This document shows positions 4,875-56,327 of a DNA stretch of 64,000 nucleotides, one piece after another. This DNA is from Halodesulfovibrio aestuarii DSM 17919 = ATCC 29578 (GTDB lineage: Bacteria > Desulfobacterota > Desulfovibrionia > Desulfovibrionales > Desulfovibrionaceae). The stretch lies in contig NZ_ARQF01000021.1 of the NCBI RefSeq assembly GCF_000384815.1, positions 868,001-932,000 of the forward strand, written 5' to 3'. A program made the position numbers and the translations under genes. The first letter of the stretch is position 1, and every line of letters begins with the position of its first letter. The notes below the pieces were generated by a model. That model was not told where the DNA came from, did no database searches, and worked only from the letters and a program-made list of their open reading frames with translations.

Positions 4875-5363
4875 CTACTTTCTCCCGAGCAATGCTAACG
4901 GATTAGGTATTTTCGCCCCCTTCTTATCCAACGCGGAACGACTGATGAAGTAGTAGCCAAAGGTCCACGTACAAAGCTCAGTTAAGAACTTGTACTTATC
5001 TGGTGGGACATATGCGACAGGAACAAAGGTAGCGACAAAAACCGCCAAAGTGACACCAATCAGCACCAAGGGGCGTACGTTTTTAGAAAGCCATGAATCA
5101 GACTTCATGTCTGCCTCATGGCGCTTGGTAAGTTCTTTTTCCAAGCCGAGCTCGTAGCTCTGCCATGCCTGTTGAAACTGGAGGGCAAGCTCTGGATTCT
5201 GCTGCAAAGCGGCAAGCGCCGCATCGTCGGAATCCGCCCCTGTAATTGCCTTTGCCATGCCCACAACCTGCGTTGTGACTTTTTCCGCGCTGTCGCCACC
5301 AATCCATTTGGCAATAGTCGGGGCAAAGGCACACAAACCGGAGATGATAGATAGTATCGCCAT
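4875..5363 (-). CDS. phage holin, 3TM type (holin superfamily III-like)
   Basis: 162 residues. The middle of the protein is a soluble helical region. The C-terminal half begins with KNVRPLVLIGVTLAVF, the hallmark Arg-Pro-containing first transmembrane helix of the GTA/3TM holin family, followed by a second hydrophobic segment near FLTELCTWTFGYYFISRS. Holins permeabilise the inner membrane to release endolysin. It lies 3 nt downstream of the endolysin gene, forming a lysis cassette. Assignment rests on family pattern and context. Confidence 0.8.
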   Translation of the reverse strand: MAILSIISGLCAFAPTIAKWIGGDSAEKVTTQVVGMAKAITGADSDDAALAALQQNPELALQFQQAWQSYELGLEKELTKRHEADMKSDSWLSKNVRPLVLIGVTLAVFVATFVPVAYVPPDKYKFLTELCTWTFGYYFISRSALDKKGAKIPNPLALLGRK

Positions 5364-5366
5364 ATG

Positions 5367-5846
5367 CTACGCCTGCACCACGTTATGCAATCCGGCCTTA
5401 ACGCAACGCTGCTCGCCATTGTGCGAAAACGTAAGCGCTTGCCGTAGCGGCTCCTCTCCGACCGGAGGGACTGCTACGTGCGTCCACGAACCATATTCAT
5501 TGATTACTTGTTGGAATGGCAGGTTCAGCCGCTCAATAGCTTGAGCTACCTGTAAAGGCGGGATGCCCGGTACAACGAGATCAGCAGCCAGTCCAAACAA
5601 ATGATGGCTCGTCTGGCTACCGCCGATATGATCATTCAGCCACTTAGGACGATAACCACTCGTAATGGTGATGCTAACACCAAGCTCGTCACGCAAAGGC
5701 TGCAATACCGTAACGCACAACTGCTTCAGATTCTGAATAATCTCTGAGGCCTGATCTACGATAATGGGACGCCCTAACCGCTCCGCCGTTTGACTGCGGC
5801 AAAATTCGTCTAAATAGAAGTTAGGAGATAATAAAAAACGCTGCAT
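5367..5846 (-). CDS. M15-family peptidase endolysin
   Basis: 159 residues, one peptidase M15 domain of the D-Ala-D-Ala carboxypeptidase/L-Ala-D-Glu endopeptidase type. The zinc site is seen as SxHxxGxAxD (S80, H82, G85, A87, D89), with SGYR at 63-66 and WTHVAV containing the third ligand H123. It has no signal peptide, so release would need the adjacent holin. The AAGGAAGG ribosome-binding site and ATG are inside a long hairpin (see 5841-5880), which could slow translation until late in infection. The family and role are firm; the hairpin control is inference. Confidence 0.9.
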   Translation of the reverse strand: MQRFLLSPNFYLDEFCRSQTAERLGRPIIVDQASEIIQNLKQLCVTVLQPLRDELGVSITITSGYRPKWLNDHIGGSQTSHHLFGLAADLVVPGIPPLQVAQAIERLNLPFQQVINEYGSWTHVAVPPVGEEPLRQALTFSHNGEQRCVKAGLHNVVQA

Positions 5847-5880
5847 ACCAACCTTCCTTTATTGAAGTATTGGTATGCAG
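5841..5880. repeat. 40-nt hairpin repeat, copy A (endolysin leader)
   Basis: Perfect 10-bp inverted arms CTGCATACCA / TGGTATGCAG. On the minus strand the hairpin contains the endolysin ribosome-binding site AAGGAAGG in the loop side and the ATG in the 3' arm, followed by a run of six T. A near-identical direct copy lies at 8967-9005, differing at about four positions. The two copies bracket the PHP-ATPase gene. Confidence 0.9.
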
Positions 5881-5951
5881 CGTACTGCGTATTATGTGGG
5901 ATGTCGGGAAATTAGGGGTGTTGGGGCAGAGAAAGCAATAACATGAAGTTA

Positions 5952-5980
5952 TTGACCTAACTCACTACCCTTTTTACAAA
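5952..5980 (+). promoter_or_regulatory. sigma-70-like promoter for the PHP-ATPase gene
   Basis: TTGACC (5952-5957), a 17-nt spacer and TACAAA (5975-5980), about 55 nt upstream of the ATG at 6035. The ribosome-binding site AAGGGG precedes the ATG. A short inverted repeat (AATAAC / GTTATT) sits just upstream of the -35 box. This would let the cargo gene be expressed from the lysogen independently of phage lytic transcription. Confidence 0.5.
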
Positions 5981-6034
5981 TGGAAACACAAATCGATCAT
6001 ATTTTACAATCACATATACGTTAAGGGGTACACC

Positions 6035-8938
6035 ATGAATTCTCGCGGCTCCGAATGGCATAAATGGGATCTCCATGTTCACACGCCAGCCTCAACAATC
6101 TGTTATGAAAATAAAAATGTTACCAACGAGGACATTATTACCAGCATGATTGAACATGGTATTTCAGTCTTTGCTGTTACAGACCATCATGTAATTGACA
6201 TTGAACGTTACAGGGAACTTTCAAAACTCGGAAAAGCAAAAGGAATAACAGTGCTTCCCGGAATCGAATTTCTATCTGATTCGAGAGGTAAAGAACCTAT
6301 CCACTTTATTGGAATATTTTCCGAAACTGATGACCTCGAATACATTTGGGGAGAAATAAAACATAATACTGCAATAAAGCAAATTGATGGTCCCCAGAAA
6401 AAAAAGCCTGATGAAGTATATTGCGATCTAGTTAACACCATAAAACTTGTAAAAAAACTGCAGGGGGTCGTAACTATTCATGCGGGAGGCAAGTCACACA
6501 GTGTCGAAAACATCTCCCACTCATTCCCCCATCTAGCAGCCCAAAAAATTGATATTGGAAACAATATAGACATCTTTGAATTTGGACAAAATTCACACAA
6601 AAAAGACCAACTAGCGTATAATAAATTTGTTTTCAAAGAAATGAAGCGCTCTGTCCCAATGATTATATGCTCTGACAATCATAATGCTCTTGATTATACG
6701 GTAGAACAATACTGCTGGATTAAAGGAAGTCTTGATTTCGAAGGATTAAAATATGCTCTAAACGAACCTGAAGAAAGGTTCTACATAGGCGCTCAACCTG
6801 ATATCCTTTCGAGACTCAAAACTGATTCCACAAAATTTCTTAATGAGATCGTCATCGAACGGATTGGAAGCGATGATCAACAACATCGCTGGTTCGAACA
6901 AGTTAGAATCCCCCTAAATCCAGAACTTATTACTATTATTGGTAATAAAGGAAGCGGGAAAAGTGCACTCGCTGATATAATTGGACTATGCACTGATGGA
7001 GAGCATTCACCTGATTACACTTTTCTCAATAAAGATCGTTTCAAGCAAAACGGTTTAGCCGAACGCTTTGCAGCCGAAGTCACTTTTCAAAGCAATATAA
7101 AGACAGAACGCCGCAAGCTGAGTCATGAAATTGACCCTTCAGATGTCTCACGAGCACACTACTTACCACAGCGCTATTTTGAAAAAGTTTGCAACGAGAT
7201 AGGTGAAATTAATAAATTCAGAGCAGAAATTGAAAAGGTCGTATTTCAATATATCCCTGAACACGAACGACTAGAGACAAGCTCGTTTTCAGAATTGGTT
7301 AAAATCAAAAAACAATCTGTTGAAAGCGAACTTAAAACCCTCAGGGATAGCCTTACCAAGCTCAATGAAAAAATCATTACCTATGAAAACTCCTTAACAC
7401 CCTCTTATCAAAAGAAAGTTCAAAACCTCTTAGAACTTAAAAAAGAAGAGAGGATCGCGCATATAAAGAAGCGTCCAAAAGAGGTCCTTATTCCCAATAC
7501 AAACAACACCAAATATGAACAAGAACAATTAGATCATTGGGATAATCAAAAAAAAGAGCTTATTGAACAAAAAGAGCAAGTTATTCGCGACGTCACACAA
7601 AAAAAAATATGGAAAGAAGAACTCATAACCTATAAAAAGACCATTCAGGACCACCTAAAATCTATAGAAAAAATCAATACTCAATATAGCTCAATTCTTG
7701 AAGCGACTCAAATTAACCCAACTGATCTTCTTTCAATAACATTTATTAGTTCTCAGATTGACACACGAATTAACGAATTGGGAATGGAAATTACGACATA
7801 TGAAAAAGAACTTACTGCGACTAGGCCCGACTCAGAGAGAAATAAGGACTATGCAGGTCGAACTATTGTAGAAAAAATTGCATACTGCGATCAAAAAATT
7901 ACGCAATATGCATCAGCCCTTGGAACTTTAGAAAAATTAAACAGAACTTTCCAAAAAGAACTACTTGAATGGGAACTAAAGAAAACTAGAATAACACAAG
8001 AAAGTAAAACGCAATCAGAACACGTTGAAGAAATAAAAAACAATTTTCCCAAAAAATTAAGTACACTAAGGCAAGAGCGGTTAGACCTTGCCCACAAAAT
8101 TTATCAAAAATTAGAAGAAGTAAAATCTATTTATGATCAAGTTAAACTATCTATTGATAACCAATTAAAAAAAACAAACAACACTGGAAATCATCCCATT
8201 GATCTTACTATTTCTAGTGAATTTTCAACAACAACAAACTTTTCCAAAATCTTATTAGAGCATATTTATAGAAATAAGTCTGGCTCATTCCATGGTAAAA
8301 GGGACAGTGAAAAAACTTTAAACGAAAAAATACTAAATTCGACCGACTGGAATAAAAAGGAAAGTATTAAGACTTTTCTTTCAGCTACCATAAATGCCCT
8401 AGAAGTTAATATTAATTCTGCCAAGGGTGATATGGATCAAAGGACTTGCATCACAGAGCTTGTAAAAGACAGAAAAACTTTTTACAATTTTCTTTTTGGA
8501 CTAGACTATCTTAATCTTCACTACGAGTTACGACAAAATGAAAAAGAGCTAGCACAACTATCTCCTGGAGAAAAAGGGGCTTTACTTCTTGTCTTCTATC
8601 TTGTTCTAGACAAAGAAGATATCCCTCTCATTATTGATCAGCCCGAAGACAACTTAGACAATAAGAGCGTTGCTGAGGTCTTAGTACCATTCATAAAAGA
8701 AGCCAAAAAGCGACGTCAGATAATTATGGTGACCCACAACCCAAACCTAGCGGTTGTAGCGGACTCTGAACAAGTTATAAGAGTCTCAATCGAAAAAGAA
8801 AATGGGAATAAATTTTCGCATGTTTCGGGGGGGATTGAAAAGCGCATAATTAATGATGCGGTAGTTGACGTTCTGGAGGGAACCCTTCCTGCCTTCACTA
8901 AACGCAAAGATAAATATAGTTCGGTTATTACAAGATAA
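6035..8938 (+). CDS. PHP-domain / SMC-like ATPase defence protein (TrlF or Ppl type)
   Basis: 967 residues. Residues 1-250 form a PHP phosphoesterase: HVH (14-16), DHH (50-52), E78 in PGIEF, TIHAGG (H149) and SDNH (D214, H216) are the metal ligands. Walker A GNKGSGKS (303-310) opens an ABC/SMC-type ATPase split by a long Lys/Glu-rich coiled coil (about 405-710). The ABC signature LSPGE (842-846), Walker B LIIDQPED (D868, E871) and H-loop H901 close it. Proteins of this build are known as TrlF-family ATPases and as the Ppl anti-phage system. The likely model is phage sensing by the ATPase and nucleic-acid or nucleotide cleavage by PHP. The gene is AT-rich, opposes all phage genes around it and has its own promoter and terminator, so it is cargo. 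Confidence 0.85.
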   Translation: MNSRGSEWHKWDLHVHTPASTICYENKNVTNEDIITSMIEHGISVFAVTDHHVIDIERYRELSKLGKAKGITVLPGIEFLSDSRGKEPIHFIGIFSETDDLEYIWGEIKHNTAIKQIDGPQKKKPDEVYCDLVNTIKLVKKLQGVVTIHAGGKSHSVENISHSFPHLAAQKIDIGNNIDIFEFGQNSHKKDQLAYNKFVFKEMKRSVPMIICSDNHNALDYTVEQYCWIKGSLDFEGLKYALNEPEERFYIGAQPDILSRLKTDSTKFLNEIVIERIGSDDQQHRWFEQVRIPLNPELITIIGNKGSGKSALADIIGLCTDGEHSPDYTFLNKDRFKQNGLAERFAAEVTFQSNIKTERRKLSHEIDPSDVSRAHYLPQRYFEKVCNEIGEINKFRAEIEKVVFQYIPEHERLETSSFSELVKIKKQSVESELKTLRDSLTKLNEKIITYENSLTPSYQKKVQNLLELKKEERIAHIKKRPKEVLIPNTNNTKYEQEQLDHWDNQKKELIEQKEQVIRDVTQKKIWKEELITYKKTIQDHLKSIEKINTQYSSILEATQINPTDLLSITFISSQIDTRINELGMEITTYEKELTATRPDSERNKDYAGRTIVEKIAYCDQKITQYASALGTLEKLNRTFQKELLEWELKKTRITQESKTQSEHVEEIKNNFPKKLSTLRQERLDLAHKIYQKLEEVKSIYDQVKLSIDNQLKKTNNTGNHPIDLTISSEFSTTTNFSKILLEHIYRNKSGSFHGKRDSEKTLNEKILNSTDWNKKESIKTFLSATINALEVNINSAKGDMDQRTCITELVKDRKTFYNFLFGLDYLNLHYELRQNEKELAQLSPGEKGALLLVFYLVLDKEDIPLIIDQPEDNLDNKSVAEVLVPFIKEAKKRRQIIMVTHNPNLAVVADSEQVIRVSIEKENGNKFSHVSGGIEKRIINDAVVDVLEGTLPAFTKRKDKYSSVITR

Positions 8939-8966
8939 CCCCTTGTGGTATTTAAGCTAAAAAAAA

Positions 8967-9010
8967 CTGCATACCATCTTCCTTTATTAAAGTAATGGTA
9001 TGCAGCTTTT
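8967..9010. terminator. bidirectional terminator; hairpin repeat copy B
   Basis: 39-nt copy (8967-9005) of the hairpin at 5841-5880, in the same orientation. The 10-bp stem is followed by CTTTTTTT on the + strand and by a run of eight T on the - strand, so it can end both the PHP-ATPase transcript and read-through from the right. Its minus strand still carries AAGGAAG and an ATGCAG, the remains of an endolysin-type leader and start. Confidence 0.85.
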
Positions 9011-9055
9011 TTTATACTGTATGTCAGGAAGCTTTAAGGATTTGCGAGAAAAAGA

Positions 9056-11248
9056 CTAGTTACCACCACAACATTTTTTATATTTTTTGCCACTGCCGCA
9101 TGGACATGGTTGGTTTCGTCCTATCTTTTTTGAGGAGCGCTGGACTGTGGAAAAATTCATCTTTTTCCTACCCGTTGAAAGAACTCCTGTTGCCTCCTCG
9201 AACTTCTCATCATATTTCCATTTCCCCTTAAACTCGACTCCACCTTCAACCTGAAGAGAAATAGGGTTAAGCGATATTCCAAGCCACTGCTCAGCCTTTT
9301 CCTTATATTTCCGTAGGGCGCAATGTCCTTCCAACTTCTTGGCTGCAGACTCATCAAATCTGAAATTACAATGTACTGTAAACCCAGTAGAAGCTTCACT
9401 TACTCCAGCTGTAAAATCATGAGAACTACTATCTGATTTAGATAATTTTATTGCATTAGCAACTCCCACATTAATTGCAGAAATTGTTTCCTCATTCAAA
9501 AGCATCAACATGCGGCTTAAATTAACTGCAAAAGGTTCTTCAGACTTTTGAAGTTGCTCAATTATTACACCATATATCGTACCATCAAATTTAGTTAATA
9601 TTCCTTCAGGTGTTTTTATCCCCGGCACCCCCTCCCTTCTAGCCATCATTGCTAAATCTAAGTCAGCTGTAATATCATCCTCAAACATCATCAGGTTGTA
9701 CTGAGGGTCAAGCCATAAGTTGGATTTCAAATGATAAGAAAGTAGCGTCAATTCATGTTGAGCCATCGTAGATTCAGTGTAACCAACTCGACGATGAAGA
9801 TAATTTAAAAAATATAGCGGGGAATCTAACATTTCTGTTAATGCATCAAGGAAAAATACATCCATTACAAACGGCGACAATATTTTCTCATTACTTTCAT
9901 ACGTAAGAAAATTACGAGCCTGAAAACTTAATGCTGGATAATGATCAGCAACTATACATATTGGAAAAATTTCTGATATGTCTCGATTCACTTCTAGTTT
10001 TTGACCATCTGCTAATACTAAGTCATATTTCGAATCTGACAAAACAGCAGCACATGAATATGCCTGATTGTATGACTCTTGAATTGCCCCCTGAAAATCT
10101 TTCTTAAGGCATTTATCGCTTCCTTTTCGTGCTTCAATTGTTAATTTTTTTGACTTCGCCTGTAAAACGATTGCTCTATCAGCATATATAGCCAAGACAT
10201 CTATCTCTCCATATTTATCTCCTCGTGCATTTTTTATGTCTACATTTTGATAGACATTACTACCCCCCAAAACTTTTCCTAAAAACTCTGCTGCAATTTC
10301 TTCAGTGTAAGCTCCACGATTTTTACTTGCGGTCTCCTTATAGTCGGCATCTGCTAAGAACCAATAAAACGGTGACTCATAAATAGATTCTGAAAAACTA
10401 TAGCTTAAAAATAATAAATAACTGTCATTTTCTGTTTTTATAAAAGGGCAAGCATTAGATATGTTAAAATCATTCAAACATGTAAAACCAGAGTTCTGCG
10501 CCTTAGGTAATACAGAAAATTCTTCTAAAATATTTTTTATTATATCTACATCAAGATCTACATACTGAGTCAGCTCACTAACTTTGAATTCAAAAGCTGG
10601 TAAACAACTCCAATCTTCTATTTCTATTTTTTTATCTTTAAACGATAAGAAATAATCTGTTAATTTTTCATTTTGAAATGTAGAAATTGATTTATGGAGT
10701 TTAGCCGCATCTGCAATCGAAAACCCTTTGTTTTTTAGTATCCAAGCGCTATCTTTTTCATACCGAATAGGGGCAAGATCTCTATATTGAAAGTTATATG
10801 CCGTCTCACCACCATAGAAAATTGGTTCACGCATTACACTTGCTCGCCTAAAAGGATTTTCCTTTTCTTCAATTGCCCCTTTCAAAGCTGTTGGTGGCAA
10901 CATCATTGCATAATGTAGCTCATGCAAAAGTCTTTCTGTTTCCGCTCCCATTTTACTGAAGGCATCATAGCTTGGCTTTGTAAAATCAATATTTTCCTTT
11001 AACATTAAACCTAACAAGACAGATTGCTCATTCCTAATCAAACGACTTTGAGAAAACTGATCTAGAATATCTTCTGCTGACACTTCTTTATCAAAACCAA
11101 TCACATTATCCCGTACGCAAAGGTAAGCAAACACATGAATAAAACCAGATTGCGTACAAACCGTAGCCAGATCTTTAAAAATATCTTCTTCGGCTCGAGT
11201 CTCTTTAACAACTTCTTGTAAAGATTCTAATGAATTCTCAGCGCTCAT
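9056..11248 (-). CDS. PD-(D/E)xK-like nuclease with C-terminal SEC-C motif
   Basis: 730 residues. The central region has a nuclease core resembling NERD/restriction-type folds: E316/E317 in AYTEEIAAEF, then GEIDVLA (E348, D350) and VLQAKSK (Q363, K365), the E...ExD...QxK pattern. The last 20 residues are the SEC-C zinc knuckle (NQPCPCGSGKKYKKCC). The rest is not recognisable. Such SEC-C nuclease proteins are common in defence islands, and this copy lies convergent to the PHP-ATPase in prophage cargo space. The AT-rich composition is unlike the early genes to its right. A GGTAGGT ribosome-binding site precedes the ATG. The substrate is unknown; anti-phage action is inferred. Confidence 0.7.
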   Translation of the reverse strand: MSAENSLESLQEVVKETRAEEDIFKDLATVCTQSGFIHVFAYLCVRDNVIGFDKEVSAEDILDQFSQSRLIRNEQSVLLGLMLKENIDFTKPSYDAFSKMGAETERLLHELHYAMMLPPTALKGAIEEKENPFRRASVMREPIFYGGETAYNFQYRDLAPIRYEKDSAWILKNKGFSIADAAKLHKSISTFQNEKLTDYFLSFKDKKIEIEDWSCLPAFEFKVSELTQYVDLDVDIIKNILEEFSVLPKAQNSGFTCLNDFNISNACPFIKTENDSYLLFLSYSFSESIYESPFYWFLADADYKETASKNRGAYTEEIAAEFLGKVLGGSNVYQNVDIKNARGDKYGEIDVLAIYADRAIVLQAKSKKLTIEARKGSDKCLKKDFQGAIQESYNQAYSCAAVLSDSKYDLVLADGQKLEVNRDISEIFPICIVADHYPALSFQARNFLTYESNEKILSPFVMDVFFLDALTEMLDSPLYFLNYLHRRVGYTESTMAQHELTLLSYHLKSNLWLDPQYNLMMFEDDITADLDLAMMARREGVPGIKTPEGILTKFDGTIYGVIIEQLQKSEEPFAVNLSRMLMLLNEETISAINVGVANAIKLSKSDSSSHDFTAGVSEASTGFTVHCNFRFDESAAKKLEGHCALRKYKEKAEQWLGISLNPISLQVEGGVEFKGKWKYDEKFEEATGVLSTGRKKMNFSTVQRSSKKIGRNQPCPCGSGKKYKKCCGGN

Positions 11249-11279
11249 ATTGACCTACCTGTTTTCTTTTAACAAACGA

Positions 11280-11311
11280 TAATGCCCCTGCTATACTTAG
11301 CAGAGGCATTA
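11280..11311. terminator. hairpin after the early operon
   Basis: Inverted repeat TAATGCCCCTGCTA / TAGCAGAGGCATTA (one mismatch, 4-nt loop) between the end of the early operon (11447) and the start of the SEC-C gene (11248). There is no strong T-run, so it is a weak terminator or a leader hairpin for the SEC-C gene. The rest of 11312-11446 is AT-rich without a gene. Confidence 0.45.
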
Positions 11312-11446
11312 AGTGCTTTTACTGACTTTCCATCATAAATTTTCAAATATCCACAAAGCATTACATAACAAAGCAAGGTTACGCCTCATTAAAAAAAAAG
11401 AAAAGGTTAGCCAATATGCAAAGTTCAAATATGACAATTAAATATT

Positions 11447-11881
11447 CTACCAATCAACCCTTTCCATCTCCTCCTGCACACTCTCTGCGGTTATTCGAAT
11501 AGGCAATCGCAGATGCCGAACAAGCACACCGTCATCTACTAGCTTACGAACAGTGCGCTCTGAGATGTTTAAGCAGTAGGCGGCTTCATCTACTCTAAGA
11601 AATTTTTTGGCTTGTAGCATTTCTTCAGGAAGCATGGAGAACTTACTTTGTGTCTGCGATGCCGGGAACTGCATGGGCACTTGAAAGCCTTCTGTATTCT
11701 TTGGGGTACAGCGCTTATTACAACCAAGGCAGTGCAAGATAGGCCAGCGATGTAGCCAATAGGCACGAGAGGCGTCTTTGCAGCCAAACTTTGAATAGAC
11801 GTCCTCAGCTATTTCCCCTCCGAAGGGGCGAAAGCCTTCAATCATCATTTGCGCCATTACGCGGCATAGCTTGCTATTCAT
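11447..11881 (-). CDS. phage regulator with C-terminal excisionase-like HTH
   Basis: 144 residues. The C-terminal ~55 residues (VDEAAYCLNISERTVRKLVDDG) are a MerR/excisionase-type helix-turn-helix. The N-terminal half has a Cys cluster (CLGCNKRC) after an HRWPILHC segment, a possible zinc site. It is the last gene of the early operon, where Mu carries the middle/late regulators Mor and C, but it is not recognisably Mor-like. A role as activator of the late genes is suggested only by position. Start overlaps the previous gene by 4 nt. Confidence 0.6.
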   Translation of the reverse strand: MNSKLCRVMAQMMIEGFRPFGGEIAEDVYSKFGCKDASRAYWLHRWPILHCLGCNKRCTPKNTEGFQVPMQFPASQTQSKFSMLPEEMLQAKKFLRVDEAAYCLNISERTVRKLVDDGVLVRHLRLPIRITAESVQEEMERVDW

Positions 11882-15270: not shown

Positions 15271-17397
15271 CTAGTTCGCCTGCGCCACGCACTGGCGGGT
15301 TTTTCCGTAGTATTTCCGAAGCCGCTCGTAGCGCGGTGCGGCATCCTGAACATATTCTTCTGTGCTTTCATACTGTTCCATCCACTCGCTATCCGGCTCC
15401 CGCAGAACAACACCGTCCTTTACGGACAGGCCAAACAGGTAGTCATACTTATCCAGCTCAGTAACAATCTCAGGCTTCTGTACTGGGGGAACATAAGATG
15501 GGGCTTTGCTGCGCTGTGTTTGCGCCTTCTTCTTAGCTGATTCAATGCTGAGAACCTTTGATTGCGAAAGCGGCGTATCTGCGACCTTCTTCGGTTCAAT
15601 TTTCTCATTTTGAATGGCAACCATTCGATCACGCTGTGCGGCAAGTGAATCTTCAAGAACCTGTCGCGCAATGCTTGATGCGTCACGCTCCTGATCTTTC
15701 TTCAAAGTAATTGCTTGCTGAAGTTCTTCACGGTGTTGATCCGTTCCGAGCAAACTCGCAGCAGGGTGAATTGCATTCTGGCGCTGCGCCTTGCAAATGA
15801 ACTCGCTACCGTCTTCACTGAACACCAAAATTGAAGAACGATCGTGTAAGTCATACTTAATTTGAACTGCATGTGTTCTGCCGTGCATCAGGCCGTCGTA
15901 GTAGCGTTCACCAAGAAAGCGGATACCTTCTCGACGTATCTGACGTACTGCTTTTGCCATCATAAGGTGGCGCAATTTGCTTTCATCAACGCCAGCACCT
16001 CGCCCTTGCATAAATACTTCTGCAGGAGTTTTGCCGTTCAGATGCCCACGCTGTGGTCGCTGGATATATTCATCTATCCACTGAGCCACTACGTAATGAG
16101 TTTCCTCAAGGGTCAAGGGGCGGCCTCCAGCAGCATCATATGCTTTGCGATGCAATGGCTCACCACGATTTAAACGTGCTGGCTTTGCAGCAATGTTATT
16201 GCCCACGTATGACGGCACCCACTGCTCTAGCTCGTGCAACGTTCCAAAAAATCGTTCGATTGTTTTTGACTGACCATGATACGGCCATGCAAAAATTGTA
16301 TGAATACCAAGATCTTGAAACAACCCTGCTATTCCTGTCTGGCGGAAGTCTACCCCGTTAAAATACTTGGAGCGAAACGCCCTGCCGTTATCGAGGTAGG
16401 CAATAAGAGGGAACTTACCGAGTGTCATAACAGCACGCCGGAAGGCTGCGGCAATGCCCTGCGTATTTTCTGTGGGCATGATCTCCCAACCCATTGGGCA
16501 GTTAGACTTCATGTCATACCACATAATAAGTTCCATGCGCTGCGGTTTGCCCGTCCAAGGATTAAGCGTTTCAAAGTTCAAAACGTGTCCATCAGCAACA
16601 AGGATGTCACCAACTTCAATCAGATTGTAGTCACGCTCAATGTAGAATGCGGCTTTATCATTCCACGCTTTCTTACCTTCACGCGTATAGACCCACGTTC
16701 CAAAATTTGTTTCTTTCCAAATAGAAAGGAAACGACGCATTGTGCGCTCTGCGGGGATTGGTAACTTCTGAGCAGTCATTGCAGAAGTTGCCATGCGAAT
16801 GGCGGTACTAATAGTTGGGTGGTTAGGTTGAAGCACTGCATTAAGAAGTAACTTTGCATGCTCTTCTGTCATCTTTGCGCGCTGCTCGTTTCCTGCACCG
16901 CGTCTATCAACCAACGCCACAACCGTTCCATTCTTACGAAGCTCCAGCTTCCAACGTTCAATGGATTTCCACGAAGCCTTTACGCCAAGAGTTTCCAATA
17001 AATGAGGCCATGCTCCACCCTTGTAAGCTTGAATAAAGGAATCGCGCGCCACGGCTTTGCTGCCGAATTCGGCCTTAGCAATCCATTCCGAATACAGCAC
17101 AACAAGATCCGCACGGGCTAGCGCTTTCTTACGTTTTGCATCACTTACACCAGCAGTTGCTAACGTAGGCACTGTCGGCTGCACAGCCTGTTGATCTACA
17201 AGTCTAGCTTCAGCAGAGACAAGAGCTGTGCGGGTTGCTTCAGGCATAGTCGAAACCAGCCACTCATTGCCACCGCCACGTCCAACACGAGGGCGTGCTT
17301 GCCATGATTCACGGTTTGCTCTTACAAGCACCCCTTTAGGCTGCGAAAAACCTAAAATACTTGCTAGCTCTCTGGTTGTGTAAGCTTCTTTCAACAT
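15271..17397 (-). CDS. MuA-like DDE transposase
   Basis: 708 residues. The N-terminus (residues 5-60) is the Mu DNA-binding winged helix (TTRELASILGFSQPKGV). The catalytic core has VADGH (D269), YLDNGRAF (D336) and KTIERFF (E381). D269 and D336 fall at the same residue numbers as in MuA, whose Glu is E392. A C-terminal region rich in Lys/Gln should interact with MuB. It catalyses strand transfer of the prophage ends for integration and replicative transposition. All catalytic residues are present, so it should be active. A 9-bp hairpin lies in its leader. Confidence 0.94.
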   Translation of the reverse strand: MLKEAYTTRELASILGFSQPKGVLVRANRESWQARPRVGRGGGNEWLVSTMPEATRTALVSAEARLVDQQAVQPTVPTLATAGVSDAKRKKALARADLVVLYSEWIAKAEFGSKAVARDSFIQAYKGGAWPHLLETLGVKASWKSIERWKLELRKNGTVVALVDRRGAGNEQRAKMTEEHAKLLLNAVLQPNHPTISTAIRMATSAMTAQKLPIPAERTMRRFLSIWKETNFGTWVYTREGKKAWNDKAAFYIERDYNLIEVGDILVADGHVLNFETLNPWTGKPQRMELIMWYDMKSNCPMGWEIMPTENTQGIAAAFRRAVMTLGKFPLIAYLDNGRAFRSKYFNGVDFRQTGIAGLFQDLGIHTIFAWPYHGQSKTIERFFGTLHELEQWVPSYVGNNIAAKPARLNRGEPLHRKAYDAAGGRPLTLEETHYVVAQWIDEYIQRPQRGHLNGKTPAEVFMQGRGAGVDESKLRHLMMAKAVRQIRREGIRFLGERYYDGLMHGRTHAVQIKYDLHDRSSILVFSEDGSEFICKAQRQNAIHPAASLLGTDQHREELQQAITLKKDQERDASSIARQVLEDSLAAQRDRMVAIQNEKIEPKKVADTPLSQSKVLSIESAKKKAQTQRSKAPSYVPPVQKPEIVTELDKYDYLFGLSVKDGVVLREPDSEWMEQYESTEEYVQDAAPRYERLRKYYGKTRQCVAQAN

Positions 17398-55036: not shown

Positions 55037-55113
55037 GGGGATGTAGCTCAGTTGGATAGAGTAGCTGGCTACGAACCAGTTGGTCGGGAGTTCGAATCTT
55101 CCCATCCCCGCCA
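55037..55113 (+). tRNA. tRNA-Arg(ACG), copy 5
   Basis: 77 nt, identical to copy 1. Spacer promoter TAGTTG-17-TATAAA. A strong terminator follows. Confidence 0.97.
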
Positions 55114-55123
55114 TTGAGAATAT

Positions 55124-55156
55124 AAGCTGCTAACTTTTGGTTAGCAGCTTTTTTTT
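55124..55156 (+). terminator. terminator of tRNA-Arg copy 5
   Basis: AAGCTGCTAAC / GTTAGCAGCTT with a 5-nt loop and T-run. The hairpin at 56043-56075 is almost the same. Confidence 0.9.
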
Positions 55157-55891
55157 ATACCTGAACGTTTCTAGAGAACAGACGGCCTTCTGCCTCCTCA
55201 TGATCGCTCACGCTACATATCTTTCAGACTAGCGACGTAAGGTACCCCACTCCAAATGATAAAACTCTCCTTCACAGAAAAACACTACTCTCTCCTGCTC
55301 ATACAACTTTGCCTCTCTTTATTCTACGCACAACTCAGCATGCTGTGACTTTTAAGAAACCTTATTGCTAACCAACACGGTTTCAAAAATAAGTTCCACT
55401 TTTTTGCACTGGTTGCATATCAATTTTAAGCAAATAAAAAAAATAAATAGTCATCTAGCCTGCGTTTAATGACTTTTCTCATTACATACGTTGTTATTAA
55501 GCGTAAAATACAAATTGAGATTTTACGCCAAAAATGCTGGCTAATCAGCTCCACCTAACTTCAACGCTCCGACCCAATACAGCATGCCACCATCACTGCC
55601 TACTTGCTGATTACAATTTCCCAACGCCCTGAGACCAAAAAAAGCTTCAATGCGCTTTGAACTGCATTCAAATGGCTCCCCCTCCAAAAAACTGAAGGAC
55701 GCATTGAGAATGCAAAAAAACTAGATATCATTCCCTGCCGCAACAACCAGATGATGCTTGAACCTTCTTAACAAAATTAAAGGATCCTCTACCGGCAAAC
55801 AGGTAATCATTAAGGAATTACGAGCACCACGGCGTACTTTATGGTGAAGCCGCCTAACATAAAGAAACTGTCTGCTTTTTTCATAAAGAGC
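55157..55891. other. 735-nt gap in the tRNA-Arg array
   Basis: No supported gene. One inverted repeat, GCGTAAAAT / ATTTTACGC (about 55500-55528). The gap is flanked by tRNA units with matching terminators, so it may be an old insertion or a decayed stretch between duplicated units. Confidence 0.5.
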
Positions 55892-55954: not shown

Positions 55955-56031
55955 GGGGATGTAGCTCAGTTGGATAGAGTAGCTGGCTACGAACCAGTTG
56001 GTCGGGAGTTCGAATCTTCCCATCCCCGCCA
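55955..56031 (+). tRNA. tRNA-Arg(ACG), copy 6
   Basis: 77 nt, identical to copy 1, but 918 nt from copy 5 with its own promoter and terminator. Confidence 0.97.
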
Positions 56032-56042
56032 TTGAGTATACA

Positions 56043-56075
56043 GGCTGCTAACTTCTCGTTAGCAGCCTTTTTTTT
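56043..56075 (+). terminator. terminator of tRNA-Arg copy 6
   Basis: GGCTGCTAAC / GTTAGCAGCC, 5-nt loop, eight T. Close copy of the copy-5 terminator. Confidence 0.9.
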
Positions 56076-56327
56076 ATAGCTTTTCATTTCCTTCATGCCA
56101 CTTGTCACCACACCAGCGCCCCCGCCCCCACTTTTTCAACGTATCTGCCTGCACACAACAAAGCCTATTATGGAGAATCCATAATAGGCTTTGATCATAT
56201 ACCAAACTTGTTCAGGTAAAGGTAGACGACGTGCGTACCCCCTTGCCCATTTAATTGTGACAGAACCTTGCTCATGCCGACCAGTTGCATCCAGCAGATT
56301 ATCTCTGGTTCCTCAGCAAAATTTAAA

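Follow-up and report, generated by a model that had tools for sequence, protein, structure and literature searches.

Why does the leader of a phage lysis gene occur a second time, among neighbors of quite another kind? The question arises in a stretch of 64,000 nucleotides (nt) from Halodesulfovibrio aestuarii DSM 17919 (contig NZ_ARQF01000021.1, positions 868,001 to 932,000), which we call the window and whose coordinates we use throughout. The window contains a Mu-like prophage, read on the minus strand, with identified genes for a MuA-type transposase and ATPase. In it, a gene for a TrlF-family PHP-ATPase lies between two similar hairpins. One of them, copy L, is the leader of the endolysin gene; the other, copy R, sits between the PHP-ATPase gene and a SEC-C gene. 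A preliminary description suggested that the leader had been duplicated by an incoming gene and that the locus is a site of cargo exchange. Comparing the sequences of related prophages, we consider it on balance probable that the interval between a helix-turn-helix (HTH) gene and the endolysin is a cargo zone with a lysis gate at its downstream edge, and that cargo is exchanged in the flanks while copies of the gate are carried along.

A cargo zone upstream of the endolysin

The prophage genes follow the order HTH_17 gene, two cargo genes, M15-peptidase endolysin, holin-like gene, DUF2730, terminase, and portal. The features that delimit the zone are these:

11447-11881, minus strand: HTH_17 gene (Pfam HTH_17), placed like C, the late activator of Mu; the cargo zone follows this gene, the last conserved one
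5917-11447: cargo zone of about 5.5 kb, with about 53 bp at the same place in a second prophage (blastn breakpoints 5916 and 11448)
9056-11248, minus strand: cargo gene 1, NERD plus SEC-C protein of 730 amino acids (Pfam NERD and SEC-C)
8955-9033, minus strand: leader copy R, between the converging cargo genes (blastn, folding, leader model, position counts)
6035-8938, plus strand: cargo gene 2, TrlF-family PHP-ATPase of 967 amino acids (NCBIfam TrlF_fam_ATP, 604.5 bits, cut-off 350)
5367-5846, minus strand: M15-peptidase endolysin, start codon inside the leader hairpin (Pfam Peptidase_M15_3, phrog_894)
4875-5363, minus strand: holin-like gene (phrog_3427 holin)

From C to terminase, phage Mu has the same order as the window prophage (Mu record annotation): a regulator, a terminator and late promoter, the endolysin, and later a DUF2730 protein and terminase. 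In related prophages, too, relatives of the HTH_17 gene are found ahead of the lysis and terminase genes. Since C precedes the endolysin in Mu, we infer from position that the HTH_17 protein could be the late activator.

A second Mu-like prophage in the same genome presents an empty site, in which the HTH gene is followed by the 53 bp or so, one leader, and the endolysin. Its alignment with the window prophage breaks at both edges of the zone, and the entire insert with both cargo genes is missing. A swap of cargo is seen in a sister species of the same genus (genome G007), where two prophage fragments, L017 (10.1 kb) and L018 (9.8 kb), lie at contig ends. As far as the stop codon of the HTH gene, the fragments share 95.0% identity over 3,473 bp, and from just upstream of the leader onward they share 91.6% over 826 bp; between these conserved flanks the cargo differs, and the leader copies are the sole blastn similarity. 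With a metagenomic relative, L037, these four form a clade of five phages, which we defined by endolysin leaders that match the leader model described below. Four of the five carry cargo. The empty site, the swap between sister fragments, and further leader copies between other cargo genes all support the cargo-exchange site put forward in the preliminary description.

The zones hold varied genes. The window PHP-ATPase passes the TrlF_fam_ATP cut-off and falls short of that for Ppl (129.2 bits, cut-off 1000). In L017 the cargo consists of a DUF5677 protein, a PIN-domain protein, a TIR-like protein (weak PADLOC match), two related unknowns that we call X1 and X2, and a further unknown. L018 has a DUF4145 protein, two small unknown frames, and a PHP-ATPase interrupted by stops. 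At the same place L037 carries a RES-domain protein and two proteins that score below the cut-offs for the Ite anti-phage pair (ATPase, 226.8 bits against 510; peptidase, 53.7 against 900), and are therefore relatives of that pair rather than members. Among 14 cargo proteins scanned with Pfam, no integrase, recombinase, or transposase was recognized. Outside the clade, cargo-zone genes with long internal tandem repeats were seen at L194:1383-3370 and L156:5467-6202 (HTH-forward orientation). L022:7946-8443 is a nuclease-like gene (by eye) that lies upstream of the endolysin and antisense to it; its other neighbor may be the HTH homologue (23% identity).

In two respects the zone resembles morons and the plasticity regions of Mu-like phages (PMC4378225): accessory genes lie between genes that are adjacent in relatives, and a close relative lacks them at that position. 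For morons, a flanking promoter and terminator have been described (PMC4378225); here R is terminator-like, and a promoter scan did not rise above shuffles. The same paper reports no common flanking sequence at the accessory regions of Pseudomonas Mu-like phages that would suggest a recombinase target, and calls their acquisition mysterious. Unlike the accessory regions of that paper, the cargo genes here have a shared element standing between them. Among the open-licence papers listed for the topic, we found no account of cargo genes between copies of a lysis leader. An unoccupied site, a clean swap, and an element repeated among the cargo genes make the acquisition of accessory genes at fixed places testable.

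The endolysin leader as a candidate lysis gate

The leader of the window endolysin has these parts:

5902-5907, minus strand: -35-like CCGACA of a candidate late promoter (hexamer, 17 nt, and TACGCT in all five endolysin leaders of the clade)
5879-5884, minus strand: -10-like TACGCT at the base of the 5' arm of the hairpin (hexamer pattern; folding without most of the 5' arm)
5838-5883, minus strand: leader hairpin L, the putative gate, with the ribosome-binding sequence apical, the start codon in the 3' arm, and a T-run behind it (repeat, folding, covariation)
5852-5859, minus strand: ribosome-binding sequence AAGGAAGG (sequence)

Two direct repeats connect L and R, one of 29 nt with 93% identity (5853-5881 and 8978-9006) and one of 28 nt with 79% identity (5832-5859 and 8958-8985). 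The two hairpins noticed earlier are thus real, and each includes AAGGAAG and ATGCAG, the ribosome-binding site and start that had been read in both. They had been said to bracket the PHP-ATPase almost exactly, which is true on the right, where R is 19 nt from the gene; on the left, L is about 150 nt away. The similarity was also suspected of extending beyond the hairpins, and it does: when the flank upstream of R is included (8958-9033), its alignment with the second prophage's leader spans 82 columns (79% identity, E 1e-11). The repeated unit is longer than the hairpin, about 80 bp with a conserved upstream region, and its promoter-like part had gone unnoticed.

L folds with -28.5 kcal/mol (z score -8.6 against shuffles). 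R folds with -28.3 kcal/mol (z -7.9) on the endolysin strand and with -20.7 kcal/mol (z -6.4) on the other. Outward T-runs follow R on both strands and L on the endolysin strand only. A terminator scan limited to loops of at most 8 nt listed neither hairpin. Over nine copies of the element, 95.2% of stem cells are paired, both sides have changed in 5 of the 19 pairs (as many in 5 of 500 shuffles), and the covariation score was matched by none of 500 shuffles, which indicates that the stem is maintained. G-U cells outnumber A-C cells by 9 to 2, an excess that an RNA of the endolysin strand should show, although the copies are related and the count is hence no test.

CCGACA or CCGACT, exactly 17 nt, and then TACGCT occur in five of five clade endolysin leaders, a pattern that we picked only after viewing the sequences; in L037 the spacer is unrelated in sequence. 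A loose form of this pattern has a single occurrence in the whole window. For the upstream motif, the next match in the window scores 21 (25 to 36 for the actual sites) and lies at 16507, inside the transposase gene. CATAAT was tried as the -10 element and rejected: the window leader hairpin would stay whole, and those of L158, L162, and L163 would be truncated. In the predicted folding of the clade leaders, the ribosome-binding site and/or the start codon is paired in a transcript that begins upstream. If transcription is assumed to start 7 nt after TACGCT, the five leaders, with predicted folding energies of -25.5 to -31.0 kcal/mol, retain only -5.1 to -10.1 kcal/mol.

The endolysin leader thus looks like a lysis gate, with a function that we read from sequence, as we do termination, the block to translation, the late start point, the activator, and the route by which copies are gained. 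Transcripts entering from upstream would carry the whole hairpin, and the T-run of six, found in four of the five clade phages, should terminate them. In those that read through, the endolysin start codon would be paired. With its -10 element in the 5' arm, the late promoter would begin transcripts inside the hairpin; lacking most of the 5' arm, these would be elongated and translated. With such a gate, lethal genes in the lysogen could have other genes immediately ahead of them; a promoter inside the hairpin would explain how cargo can persist in that place.

The closest system in function is gene e, the lysozyme gene of T4 (PMC3014915). In long early transcripts of gene e the start is masked by a hairpin, whose 5' part is missing from the transcripts of late promoters. 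The candidate late promoter of the clade leaders may be placed likewise, judging from the hexamer spacing in all five and the predicted loss of folding at an assumed start point. The phages and sequences are unrelated, however, and here a T-run usually follows the hairpin and degraded copies stand between cargo genes.

Start-site hairpins recur at the lysis genes of related phages. Relatives of the HTH gene were found in 38 of 348 genomes of the order (E 1e-15), and we took 39 stretches around them for comparison. A viral collection yielded 107 confirmed loci with related endolysins, of which 80 were retained. An unselected set began with all 52 of these loci whose match starts at residue 1; 16 were dropped (1 without flank, 8 with an identical 75-nt stretch, and 7 without a start codon) and 36 used. 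Where the endolysin was at least 40% identical, the region from -55 to +20 of its start gave z < -3 in 11 of 26 loci and z < -2 in 17 of 26. Among controls, which are open frames chosen by length and not verified genes, z < -3 occurred at 7 of 217 starts preceded by at least 60 nt of intergenic DNA and in 3 of 149 other late frames. Hand-picked starts gave 16/31, 18/30 with L062 dropped as near-identical to L056, and 11/21 for clade representatives; these sets are biased because some starts (L151, L158, L161, L162) were placed with a motif that itself takes in some of the hairpin or T-run. All z scores come from 30 to 200 random shuffles, and borderline values vary between runs. In two of the seven control exceptions, L045:15186 and L046:15183, the frame is the first one behind another copy of the lysis promoter motif, and it has a strong start hairpin.

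The first lysis gene of L156, L158, L162, and L163 (assigned by eye in L156 and L158) has its start codon where a terminator-like hairpin with a T-run ends. At 9 of 38 loci, the stretch following the HTH gene turns up again in the late region; of its 12 copies there, 9 are directly followed by a hairpin and T-run (by eye). Repeats in L178 and L194, which are a different element and coding tandem repeats, lie outside these nine loci. A promoter-like sequence joined to a hairpin thus appears to be a recurring module in these phages. The late regions of L168, L169, L172, L181, L182, and L184 contain a repeated GCGCCCTTTCCGGGC (last bases vary) with a terminator-like hairpin whose tip is often -10-like. 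In 7 of 13 distant leaders (L042, L045-L049, and L059), several of them near relatives, TANNNT stands exactly 12 nt before the endolysin start, inside a short hairpin; this could possibly mean leaderless late mRNAs.

Leader copies between cargo genes

Seven copies went into a covariance model of the leader and so match it by construction. Among sequences not used for training, the model picks up L018:5856-5937 (42.7 bits) and the L037 leader (44.6 bits). Four copies lie in cargo zones: R in the window, between the SEC-C and PHP-ATPase genes; c1 (L017:7237-7318), between X1 and the TIR-like gene; c2 (L017:8288-8370), between the TIR-like gene and X2; and the L018 match above, between the DUF4145 and PHP-ATPase genes.

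The preliminary description had named two findings that would count against it. One was a hairpin scattered through the host genome as a common terminator. At E 0.001, the model matched only 3 of 288 genomes of the family (the window genome, G007, and G009), and a search for the exact stem in 10 genomes of the genus gave no scattered copies, so this objection fails. The G009 match (L025, about 1529-1566) is a chromosomal terminator of a sister species that has the same 12-bp stem as the phage leader. The other finding was a related phage that lacks the PHP-ATPase and still has both hairpins. To the letter, L017 is such a phage, with no PHP-ATPase match and three leader copies, but other cargo stands between the copies. 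One scan of the genome collection returned two loci. In the parts of L019, L020, and L022 that were read, no leader like that of the window was seen, and in 450 records of named phages with endolysin relatives all identities were below 60% and no DNA match to the HTH region was found.

The four cargo-zone copies have not kept the same parts. All four retain the stem and a T-run of at least five, and two (R and c2) retain the ribosome-binding sequence and start codon. The promoter-like part is intact only in c2: c1 has the spacing with changed hexamers, the spacer of R is 12 nt, and the L018 copy has no promoter part. What the copies still share amounts to a terminator, and they probably act as terminators. 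The shortened spacer of R leaves an A-run, a T-run on the opposite strand, which fits the PHP-ATPase gene ending 19 nt away; R is likely to be the bidirectional terminator that had been proposed, as predicted from folds and T-runs on both strands.

X1 and X2 align from inside the genes through the leader to the T-run (479/686), which suggests that gene and leader were moved or copied as a unit. We propose that cargo would be exchanged by recombination in the conserved flanks and that cargo genes formerly beside an endolysin would bring a gate copy along, which would leave several cargo genes separated by gate copies. Such copies would keep stem and T-run, tend to lose promoter and start signals, and serve as terminators, R for two converging genes.

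Origin of the copies and competing explanations

The reading above can be taken further. Each cargo gene may travel with its gate copy as a cassette that has no recombinase of its own, recombination between gates, always at the same lysis leader, may build, shuffle, and empty arrays, often of defense genes, and the gate may prevent the arrays from triggering lysis. We offer this only tentatively and think it rather doubtful; if true, it would account for the arrival of accessory genes at fixed sites in Mu-like phages. In integrons, gene cassettes are separated by related attC hairpins, and an integrase accompanies the array. The cargo genes described here are likewise separated by related hairpins; in contrast to integrons, they occur in either orientation, the element between them is a lysis leader, and no integrase was recognized.

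An unlikely alternative is the one first suggested, that insertion of the PHP-ATPase cassette at the leader produced a duplicate of it, with R as the scar. Both prophages with a PHP-ATPase (that of the window and L018) do have a leader-like element on either side of it. Furthermore, a homologue from another genus (50-52% identity), on an 11.3-kb contig without the phage landmarks tested, has no leader match beside it; the hairpin thus seems to belong to the phage, and this too would suit a scar. But the insert is not a 3-kb cassette: it measures 5.5 kb and includes the SEC-C gene. The same element stands between quite different genes in L017, and the cargo proteins scanned yielded no recombinase or transposase. 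Nor is R nearer to L than to the leaders of relatives. Of 73 core positions, R shares 59 with L, 62 with the leader of the second prophage, and 61 with the L018 endolysin leader; among the endolysin leaders, only that of L037 (42/71) is clearly more distant. A transposon's flanking repeats would derive from one target copy, and R is at least as near to close relatives' leaders. Likewise, c2 matches the window leader at 76/79 and its own endolysin leader at 74/79. Bootstrap support is 0.80 for R with the second prophage over L (ties a further 8%) and 0.77 for c2 with the window leader over its own (ties a further 13%); it is near 0.57 for R with the second prophage over L018 and for c2 with L018 over its own. 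No preference is seen for c1 (own leader 55/77, window leader 54) or for the L018 copy (own leader 48/72, L017 leader 49). These affinities are weak as phylogeny. They lend no support to a recent target duplication, and an old one may still have taken place.

It also seems improbable that the copies are extra late promoters that put cargo under late control, in the manner of the four Mu late promoters (lys, I, P, and mom; PMC4461284). The promoter-like part does belong to the repeated unit, and the recurrence of the post-HTH stretch in late regions, at 9 of 38 loci, would agree with this. Three of the four cargo copies have lost promoter elements, however, and kept the terminator instead, and R faces an antisense gene.

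That the hairpin is a DNA dyad, either an operator for the activator or an attC-like recombination site, and not an RNA gate, appears quite unlikely. Perfect or near-perfect palindromes at some starts, such as that of L053, would fit a dyad; the excess of G-U over A-C cells, for all that the copies are related, the start codon and ribosome-binding site within the stem-loop, and the lack of a recognized integrase among the cargo proteins scanned speak against one. Plain terminators, present by chance or taken from the host and only incidentally like the endolysin leader, are very unlikely indeed: the L025 terminator shows that the 12-bp stem occurs on a chromosome, but three of the four copies have a similar promoter-like region upstream, two have a vestigial start codon, and the genus genomes searched hold no scattered copies.

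Several observations weigh against a cargo zone closed by a lysis gate. The cargo-zone copies come from only three prophages in two genomes, and cargo without leader copies between its genes is found in L037, within the clade, and in L156 and L163, outside it. The affinities of the copies rest on 72 to 79 positions, with no preference in two of four. TACGCT is a weak -10 element, 6 of 24 leaders (L159, L161, L052, L053, L056, and L063) have no -10 candidate by the rule used, and a generic promoter scan gave 17 sites against 17.2 in shuffles, no excess. The T-run of the L037 leader is only 3 nt long, and the number of further stem pair types is not above shuffles (308/500). In the unselected loci with endolysins below 40% identity there is no start hairpin (z < -3 in 0 of 10). 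In Mu itself, a predicted terminator precedes the C-dependent lys promoter without overlapping the start, no cargo lies between C and lys, and the start region folds barely beyond shuffles (z -1.2).

Elsewhere in the window, two related terminators, GCTGCTAAC..GTTAGCAGC, lie at 55104-55159 and 56022-56078, each right behind a similar tRNA-like sequence.

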